Below are positions 5,689 to 35,837 of a DNA stretch of 35,837 nt, piece after piece. Positions within the stretch are counted from its first letter, which is position 1. The number at the start of each line of letters is the position of its first letter. The notes beneath the pieces were generated by a model that saw only the letters and a program-made list of their open reading frames with translations, did no database searches and was not told the DNA's origin. The stretch comes from Candidatus Pacearchaeota archaeon. Lineage in GTDB: Archaea; Nanobdellota; Nanobdellia; Pacearchaeales; GW2011-AR1. The position numbers and the translations under genes were made by a program. The stretch is from contig JAGVWM010000001.1 of NCBI GenBank assembly GCA_018304325.1, forward strand, positions 1 to 35,837. Direction: 5' to 3'.

Positions 5689-5725
5689 AAGGAGGTGTCA
5701 TAAGAAGAACCTTGGTTCTTTTTAT
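5688..5725. repeat. Hairpin repeat family 2, solo copy; likely terminator of the aIF2alpha-nop10 transcript
   Basis: aaaggaggtgtcataagaagaaccttggttctttttat; 37/38 identical to 24455-24492; AAGAACC-TT-GGTTCTT stem then T-tract on + strand. Confidence 0.8.
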
Positions 5726-6948
5726 CAAAATAACTTCTTCTGTTCTTCTAATAAAGCAACTCCATACTCTCCATCATATCCTGGTTTAATTTTTATTTTA
5801 TCTTCTCTGTTTCTCATAATTAAATCGATAAGTTTTGGTTTAATTTCTTTTTCAACTAATTCTTCCTTGCTAACTTTTAACAAAATATTAAACTCATTTT
5901 CAAACTTTTCAATTAAACTATTATAAATCTCCCAGTTACCCTTACTATTTATTCCTGTATTATTATAAAGAACAATAAGCTCATGTAAAGGTAATAATTT
6001 ATGAAATTCTGCAGCATTTTTAGGTTTGAAGCCTTTAGGTTTTTTAGCTAATTCTTCAACCCTATATTCAACACCAATAATTAAATTACCTCCACATTTT
6101 GGGCATTTTCCATTTAATTTTTTTGTTTCTTCAGAACCGCATGAAAAATTACAATTCCTATGCCCATCCCAATGATATCTTCCATATTCTGGTGGAGTTT
6201 CAATAGTTCCTTTCAAACCTTCACCAGTACGAATTGCTTTTATAATATTATCATAACTTAATTCAGGAATATCAAATATAGTTGCCTCTCTTCCTATACG
6301 CCATGGCCAAAAACTATGTGCATCTGAAAAACTAACAACTCTTGCTTTTCCACTAGCTATTTCTTCAAACCTCCACAACATTGAAGGATCTGCGCTCATC
6401 CCTGATTCAATTGCATAAATATGTTTCATTTGATCTCCAAAACACTCTTTTAAAGAATCAAATCCACTTTTAGATCCAAATAAACCAAACCATGGAGTAC
6501 ATACATGAGCTGGAATAATTTCAATTTTATCATCTATATCTTTAAGATCTCTAACTAAATCTTTGCATTGTATTCCAAAAATAGGTCTCCCATCATAATC
6601 CAATCTTCCTTTACTTCCTAAATAAGAAATTATTTTATCTGCAATAATTCCATTAGGAGCAAATATAAGTAAATGAACAGCTCTTCTTTTTCCATCCTCA
6701 GAATACATTAAAGAAACTTCTGTCTGCCATAAAAATGGAAATCCTGTTTTAGTCCGTAATATCCCTTTATCATCTTCTTTTAATTTCCTAGAAATTTCTT
6801 TTCTATGTTCAGGATGTTGAAAGTCTCCAACTCCAAATAAATTCACTCCTTTTATTCTTCCAAATTTTTCCAAATTTTCAAAACTCAGATCTTTAGAAGT
6901 AGCTCTAGCATGCTTAGAATGTATTTGTAAGTCTGCAATTATCTCCAT
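5725..6948 (-). CDS. EndoQ-like PHP-domain nuclease
   Basis: MEIIADLQIHSKHARATSKDLSFENLEKFGRIKGVNLFGVGDFQHP, zinc-binding CNFSCGSEE...CPKCGG, long PHP protein as in archaeal EndoQ; SD AAGAGGTGA upstream. Confidence 0.85.
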   Translation of the reverse strand: MEIIADLQIHSKHARATSKDLSFENLEKFGRIKGVNLFGVGDFQHPEHRKEISRKLKEDDKGILRTKTGFPFLWQTEVSLMYSEDGKRRAVHLLIFAPNGIIADKIISYLGSKGRLDYDGRPIFGIQCKDLVRDLKDIDDKIEIIPAHVCTPWFGLFGSKSGFDSLKECFGDQMKHIYAIESGMSADPSMLWRFEEIASGKARVVSFSDAHSFWPWRIGREATIFDIPELSYDNIIKAIRTGEGLKGTIETPPEYGRYHWDGHRNCNFSCGSEETKKLNGKCPKCGGNLIIGVEYRVEELAKKPKGFKPKNAAEFHKLLPLHELIVLYNNTGINSKGNWEIYNSLIEKFENEFNILLKVSKEELVEKEIKPKLIDLIMRNREDKIKIKPGYDGEYGVALLEEQKKLF

Positions 6949-33878: not shown

Positions 33879-35837
33879 ATGTACGAAAAATTTCTAATCG
33901 GCATTTCTCCAAGAGAATATCAAAAAAAAATACTTGAAAAATGTAAGGATAAAAATTGTCTTGTAGTCCTTCCTACAGGGATTGGTAAAACACTCATAGC
34001 ATTAATGTTGGCCATAGAAAGAATGCATAAATATCCTATGGAAAAGATTCTTTTTTTAGCTCCAACAAGACCTTTAGCCGAACAACACTTCAATTATTTC
34101 AAAAAACATCTTCCAGAATTATTTGGACAGATGGATTTATTTACAGGAAAAATACCTGCTGAAACACGAAAAAAAACATGGGAAAGATCAGACATAGTAT
34201 TTTCAACACCTCAATGTATAGGAAATGATGTAAAAAATAAACTGTATAATTTAGAAAATGTATCATTATTAGTAGAAGATGAAGCCCATAGATGTGTTAA
34301 GAATTATTCATATACATATGTTGCAAAAAAATATACAGAACAGGCAAACAACATAAGAATTCTTGGGGTGACTGCTTCTCCAGGAACAGATAAAGCGACA
34401 ATAAAAAAAATATGTGAAAACTTACTAATAGAAGAAGTTGAATTGCGTACAAGAGAAAGTGAAGATGTTAAACCATATTTAAAAGATTTGGAAATAAAAG
34501 TAATAAAAATTCCTTTTCCAGATAGATTCAATGAAATTAGGGAACTTATGAATAAAATTTATACTAAAAGTGCACAAGACTTAAAAGGTCGAAATTTAAT
34601 TTTTGGTCCAATAAACAAAATAACACTCATAGAATGCCAGAAAAAAATAATGAAGTCTCTAGCTACAGGAGGTAAAAACCCAAATCTCTTCCATGGAGCT
34701 TCATCATGCGCTCAAGCATTAAAAATGCAGCACGCGGTAGAATTATTGGAAACACAAACATTACAATCTTGTAATAATTACCTAAATGATATGAAGGATC
34801 AAGCTGAAAAAAACAAAAGCAAAGCAGTTAAGAAAATAGTATCAAGTATAGAGTTTACTCAGGCATATAATCTCTTAAACCAACTTGTAAAAGAAAATTT
34901 AGAGCATCCTAAATTGCTAGAACTAAAAACGATAATAGAAGATAAATTAAAAGTAAATAAAAAAAACAAAACAATTGTTTTCTGCCAGTATAGGGACAGC
35001 ATAGTAAAAATATCTAAAGAACTTAATTCAATAAACAATGTGTCAGCAAAAGTATTTGTTGGTCAAACAAAAAAATCCAGGGGCAATGAAAATGCTAGTG
35101 GTTTAAGCCAAAAAGAACAACAAGAAGTAATTAGGGATTTTTCAGAAGGTAAATTTAATGTTTTATGCGCAACATCAATTGGAGAAGAAGGTCTTGATAT
35201 ACCTGAAGTTAATACAGTTATATTTTATGAGCCTGTCCCAAGTGCAATAAGAAGAATTCAAAGAGCAGGCCGTACTGCCAGAATGATGCCTGGAGAGATA
35301 ATTATGCTAGTAACACAAAATACAAGAGATGAAATATTTTACTGGGCTTCAATAAGAAAAGAGAAAAAGATGCATAAAGCAATAGATGAAATAAAAAACG
35401 ATTTAAACACTGGTAAATTTAACACAAATATAAATGAAGAAAATAAACAAAAAAAACTAGAATCAGACAAACTCAAAGTTACTATTAACGGTATGCATGC
35501 CAAATCACTTTTAGTTAAAGGAAAAATAACTAAAAATTTTTATATGGTAATAATTCCATGTAATGAAAAAATAGATAGAAAGGAATTAAAAGATAAAATT
35601 ATGGAAGAAATAACATTTGCAAGTGCAGAAGACTTGGAAAATTTACTAAAAATAAAACCAGGATCTGTATCACCATTTGCAATAATAAGAGATAAAGAAT
35701 CTAAAATAACCTTAGTTTTTAGTAAGAAGGTATTGGGATCAGAAATTCTTAATTTTCATCCAAACATAAACACAGAAACAATTGAATTAAAAAATTCGGA
35801 ATTTAGAAAATATGTCAATTCATTAAAAAATAAAATA
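33879..35837 (+). CDS. Hef-like SF2 helicase fused in frame to a ProX/YbaK-like editing domain, partial at window end
   Basis: VVLPTGIGKTLIALMLA, LAPTRPLAEQH, VEDEAHR, GVTASPG, RRIQRAGRTAR; then MHAKSLLVKG...FASAEDLENLLKIKPGSVSPFAIIRDKESKITLVFSKKVL...NFHPNINTETIEL. Open frame of 653 codons to the edge. Confidence 0.85.
   Translation, partial: MYEKFLIGISPREYQKKILEKCKDKNCLVVLPTGIGKTLIALMLAIERMHKYPMEKILFLAPTRPLAEQHFNYFKKHLPELFGQMDLFTGKIPAETRKKTWERSDIVFSTPQCIGNDVKNKLYNLENVSLLVEDEAHRCVKNYSYTYVAKKYTEQANNIRILGVTASPGTDKATIKKICENLLIEEVELRTRESEDVKPYLKDLEIKVIKIPFPDRFNEIRELMNKIYTKSAQDLKGRNLIFGPINKITLIECQKKIMKSLATGGKNPNLFHGASSCAQALKMQHAVELLETQTLQSCNNYLNDMKDQAEKNKSKAVKKIVSSIEFTQAYNLLNQLVKENLEHPKLLELKTIIEDKLKVNKKNKTIVFCQYRDSIVKISKELNSINNVSAKVFVGQTKKSRGNENASGLSQKEQQEVIRDFSEGKFNVLCATSIGEEGLDIPEVNTVIFYEPVPSAIRRIQRAGRTARMMPGEIIMLVTQNTRDEIFYWASIRKEKKMHKAIDEIKNDLNTGKFNTNINEENKQKKLESDKLKVTINGMHAKSLLVKGKITKNFYMVIIPCNEKIDRKELKDKIMEEITFASAEDLENLLKIKPGSVSPFAIIRDKESKITLVFSKKVLGSEILNFHPNINTETIELKNSEFRKYVNSLKNKI

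Follow-up and report, generated by a model that had tools for sequence, protein, structure and literature searches.

A Hef-type helicase joined in frame to a truncated ProX domain at a contig end, probably by a single-genome deletion or a local assembly error

At the end of the window, which is the entire 35,837-bp contig C31 of genome G000 (G000:C31:1–35837; a 663-kb, 39-contig, 75%-complete assembly), a complete Hef-type helicase is continued in frame by a ProX/ProXp-ala (tRNA_edit) domain lacking its N-terminus. The gene order of relatives indicates that this is probably either a deletion fusion in a single genome or a local assembly error, without a new function. We see little functional significance in the fusion, which serves as an example of how a domain fusion confined to one draft archaeal genome is explained by the gene order of relatives. 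By-products of the analysis are the finding, from domain content, of a split Hef in this DPANN order, with the nuclease usually adjacent and the helicase now ending in a putative PIP-like tail, and that of a ProX gene sometimes standing between the split Hef genes.

The fused frame and its junction

The frame lies on the plus strand at positions 33879–35837 and comprises 653 codons from ATG 33879 without a stop, just as the earlier note had read it; since the window is the whole contig, the frame is truncated by the contig end (position 35837). It consists of a complete Hef-type helicase (residues 1–527; 33879–35459) and a ProX domain (residues 528–653; 35460–35837) that is without ProX residues 1 to about 26 and the last ~3.

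The assignment of the first part to the Hef/FANCM-type SF2 helicases, already made in that note, was confirmed by the match of residues 9–533 to positions 15–532 of the 781 of the NCBIfam Hef model (3e-173) and by that of the helicase part to the solved helicase 1wp9 (3.6e-121); the motifs PTGIGKT, DEAH and QRAGRTAR are all there. The fused protein gave no match to the nuclease part of the Hef model, past position 532, and because this third is absent, its score of 578 stays under the whole-protein cut-off of 610 bits. The likeness to archaeal Hef, a FANCM/XPF-like helicase-nuclease, consists in a full-length alignment of the helicase part, whereas the XPF/ERCC4 nuclease is not in the fused protein and the ProX fragment comes there instead. 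The ortholog in the closest relative, G004, is 81% identical to the helicase part, which lacks only the last codon and the stop relative to it. From its family, the helicase would be expected to act at stalled forks.

Comparison with the G004 helicase and ProX places the junction at 35457–35462 (plus strand). G000 reads ...NKQKKL|ESDKLKVTINGMHAK across it and the G004 ProX reads ...CEESEKLKVTIQGMHAK at the corresponding place; the join falls after the penultimate codon of the helicase and at about codon 27 of ProX (35457–35460; residues 527/528). The earlier note had recognized the second part correctly as ProX but had it begin near 35493, about 30 nt too far downstream. Just before the junction stands a run of eight A (35449–35456, plus strand), on whose length the fused reading hangs: seven A would give TAG at codon 527, that is, the normal helicase length, and nine A a stop at codon 537. 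The fused protein therefore depends on the length of the A run, whereas the deletion does not.

Split Hef genes and the place of ProX in relatives

The missing nuclease domain is not peculiar to the fusion, because Hef is split across the order. Of the 55 genomes in the set, 54 gave a helicase gene, in most cases a frame ~505–577 aa long, and 52 gave a separate nuclease gene of ~210–280 aa with an 80-aa query that is 96% identical to the G004 protein. The G004 nuclease contains ERCC4 and helix-hairpin-helix domains and matches positions 562–780 of the Hef model, the part that the helicase gene lacks. As a rule, the nuclease gene stands directly 3' of the helicase gene, overlapping it or within tens of bases of it; exceptions include G030 and G002, where intervening genes take up 2.4–3.5 kb, and G003, where the genes are on opposite strands. 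As judged from these domain assignments, the helicase and the ERCC4-type nuclease of Hef are encoded by two different genes in this DPANN order. The suggestion that ProX had replaced or displaced the nuclease is thus not upheld, and ProX as a nuclease substitute was ruled out by the order-wide separate nuclease gene.

The G000 assembly itself gave no match for the nuclease gene, which weighs little at 75% completeness and would follow from a position of the gene just past the contig end. Since the contig stops about 3 codons before the expected ProX stop, the nuclease gene probably follows directly. A literature search, whose limited coverage makes absence weak evidence, found neither a split Hef in DPANN nor a Hef–ProX fusion. 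Separately, an intein (Intein_splicing, LAGLIDADG_3) was observed near residue 118 of the Hef helicase of G002:C23 (L030:3832–7023), and the helicases of G016, G025 and G029 have long frames with a similar gap near residue 118, as seen from frame length and a split match.

ProX is patchily distributed: a search with the G004 ProX found relatives in 40 of 181 family genomes, and the Pfam model found them in 50 of 200 order genomes. The order ProX frames are stand-alone (64–217 aa), except those of G000 and of a threonyl-tRNA synthetase in G007. The latter, the only tRNA_edit frame in the order of comparably great length besides that of G000, was set aside as not being a Hef fusion; this 748-aa protein (G007:C6; L181:2314–4557, minus strand) has archaeal Thr editing and YbaK/tRNA_edit domains before the catalytic core, a double-editing architecture worth a look. 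Among the loci, we also noted, in an Acidobacteria MAG, a 429-aa frame whose C-terminal end is a ProX domain (L146:3170–4456).

In three relatives, G001, G004 and G073, the nuclease gene is immediately preceded by a complete ProX gene. The order in G001 is helicase, two small genes, ProX (161 aa) and nuclease, and that in G073, from another genus, is helicase, a 166-aa gene (by eye, GNAT acetyltransferase-like), ProX and nuclease. In G004, a nucleotidyltransferase gene comes after the helicase and the contig then ends in repeats, and another contig begins with (AT)n, followed by ProX and a nuclease starting 5 bp after the ProX stop; the two contigs probably adjoin, which would place a complete ProX between helicase and nuclease. 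The locus helicase–proX–nuclease of G001, G073 and presumably G004 thus has the same genes, order and strand as G000 up to its contig end, but there, unlike in G000, ProX is a complete gene of its own, separate from the helicase. Every relative examined has two separate genes, an observation that the earlier note had named as one that would refute its reading. Among 80 GTDB ProX loci, Hef genes are adjacent only in L106, on the same contig as that of G073.

A second Hef–ProX fusion was found neither in the 181 family genomes nor in the 200 order genomes nor in the 80 GTDB loci, and a recurrent fusion was rejected, G000 being the sole case. The interval between helicase and nuclease is variable (L030/G002, L024/G001, L023/G004, L180/G073 and L183/G030) and holds nucleotidyltransferase, acetyltransferase-like, HTH-like and other small genes besides ProX, as might be seen at a site prone to insertions.

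The ProX fragment and the origin of the fusion

The ProX/YbaK-type identity of the second part is borne out by Pfam tRNA_edit, which matches residues 539–644 (8.9e-18; 65 bits against a cut-off of 25.5), and by the fold. The match begins at position 20 of 123 in the model, showing that the ProX N-terminus is missing, as the earlier note had supposed; about 26 residues are absent. Residues 528–653 are 75% identical to residues 27–152 of the G004 ProX, to which they are joined with full support in a tree. The C-terminal part has sequence matches to 1vki, to 5vxb, the ProXp-ala of Caulobacter crescentus, and to 8huz, a ProX structure. When modelled with AlphaFold2, residues 505–653 (pLDDT 84, pTM 0.78) retrieved 8huz and 1vjf in Foldseek (TM 0.78, E 3e-11 to 6e-11). 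Thus, the anticipated YbaK fold was obtained, but without its first three structural elements: in the model of the intact G073 ProX, used as control (mean pLDDT 91), helix 4–10, strand 16–19 and helix 26–33 are formed, whereas in the fusion model the helicase tail (pLDDT 45–66) occupies the place of this helix, strand and helix.

With the ProX/ProXp-ala trans-editing deacylases (INS superfamily; 5vxb, 8huz and 1vjf), the ProX part shares the fold, the equivalents of Lys45 and Lys50, and the HPN motif. Lys542 (35502–35504, plus strand) aligns with Lys45 of C. crescentus ProXp-ala, which is strictly conserved and essential (PMC10164551). Lys547 (the K50 equivalent), GSV and the conserved FHPNINT motif (35754–35774, plus strand) are also retained, and Arg80 of the C. 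crescentus protein is replaced by Glu in the fusion as it is in G004. The part differs from these deacylases by the attached helicase and by the loss of the first ~26 residues, including an invariant His: His19, present in 29 of 29 homologs compared, is absent, as are the H-P-x-V-x-T stretch of the ProX N-terminus and the well conserved Y6, I12, V22 and T24. The fused ProX part is predicted to have little or no editing activity.

The fragment is undecayed, a state equally compatible with a recent event, an artefact and a retained function. Compared pairwise with G004, ProX has a dN/dS of 0.11 and the helicase one of 0.07, values that are rough because dS is near saturation, as in neighbouring genes; the lineage-specific changes are balanced (3 versus 4). 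Foreign DNA at the contig end was rejected, because the ProX part is an ortholog of the G004 ProX with ordinary divergence. A search for a repeat or second copy of the contig end within G000 gave only a weak match (72% over 100 nt).

The earlier note had allowed for a deletion fusion or an assembly chimera, and the gene order of relatives supports this alternative. Because the fusion partner is a same-strand near neighbour of the helicase in G001 and G073, a random chimera of distant pieces is unlikely; a local deletion, whether real or made by the assembly, is likely. We lean towards a recent local deletion in one genome that joined helicase and proX in frame. The ancestral genes would have stood on one strand in the order helicase (hef), variable cargo, proX and ERCC4-type nuclease; the deletion would have extended from the last codon and stop of the helicase to about codon 26 of proX, the frame being kept by chance. 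The product would be a helicase with all its own parts carrying a beheaded ProX domain as a passenger, presumably inactive or nearly so, and the nuclease would stay a separate gene, probably starting just past the contig end. The G004 helicase and ProX stop at contig ends as expected if they adjoin, and the nuclease-less helicase with its separate nuclease across the order, the orthology of the ProX part with that of G004 and the uniqueness of the fusion among the genomes and loci searched all agree with a deletion. Moreover, the contig spans the junction and breaks only 380 bp later, and neither side has a second copy in G000; on this reading, the organism itself, and not the assembly alone, would have the deletion. 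Against it stand the position of the junction, no more than 380 bp from a contig end, a zone of frequent assembly errors, and the dependence of the frame on the adjoining A8 run. The break of the G004 assembly in the same helicase–ProX gap also counts against it, as it marks the region as hard to assemble.

The main rival is an assembly error, in which the segment between helicase and proX was skipped, because of chimeric reads, a mixture of strains or A/T-rich DNA of low complexity, and the organism has no fused gene. We regard such an error as rather unlikely, although the contig end within 380 bp of the junction, the repeats interrupting the same interval in the closest relative, the restriction of the fusion to G000 and the undecayed ProX part all speak for it; G000 shows no repeat or second copy common to both sides, and a de Bruijn assembly would usually be expected to break at a chimeric junction, not later. 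An improbable variant is a real deletion without a fused protein, in which the A run has seven or nine residues, the helicase ends at its usual length and ProX is left as a pseudogene without its 5' part, possibly with an internal start at ATG 35493. With seven A, the TAG would fall exactly at the normal helicase end, but the assembled sequence reads eight A, and short-read sequencing generally gets runs of this length right. We give very little credence to a selected bifunctional protein, in which the ProX-derived module would bind tRNA or nucleic-acid 3' ends and add a function to the fork helicase. The retained essential Lys, GSV and FHPNINT, the lack of any sign of decay and the occurrence of proX next to the split Hef genes of two or more further lineages of genus level are in its favour, but the invariant His, two helices and one strand are lost, no other genome has the fusion, and the low dN/dS mostly reflects the history before it. 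Just as little credence goes to the idea that a tRNA- or CCA-end-binding ProX module on a fork helicase links fork repair to the status of tRNA charging or of mistranslation; the G000 fusion yields no evidence of the link between fork repair and editing that had been proposed. Among these readings, we keep to the local deletion.

The C-terminal tail of the split helicases

Before the junction stands QKKL (35448–35459, plus strand), a remnant of a C-terminal QxxLF tail seen in relatives. Their helicases end exactly in QxxLF in 10 of 23 cases and have QxxL within the last 12 residues in 22 of 23; G004 ends ...EQKRLF-stop and G073 ...EKQKKLF-stop. The fusion retains QKKL, drops the terminal F and the stop, and turns the tail internal. 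The typical form of the PIP motif is QXXhXXaa (PMC4929162). In Euryarchaeota, PCNA is bound by Hef, and a PIP box is present in the protein of Haloferax volcanii (review PMC7776575); in Thermococcus kodakarensis, a disordered, partner-binding region links the helicase and nuclease domains (PMC5717133). The QxxLF tail of the split Hef helicases may be read as PIP-like, and the recruitment of split Hef to forks is a testable question.

The same motif as in the relatives' Hef helicases occurs elsewhere in the window, where a PHP-type protein (5725–6948, minus strand) with a weak match to TIGR00375 ends in EEQKKLF; this protein may resemble archaeal EndoQ.
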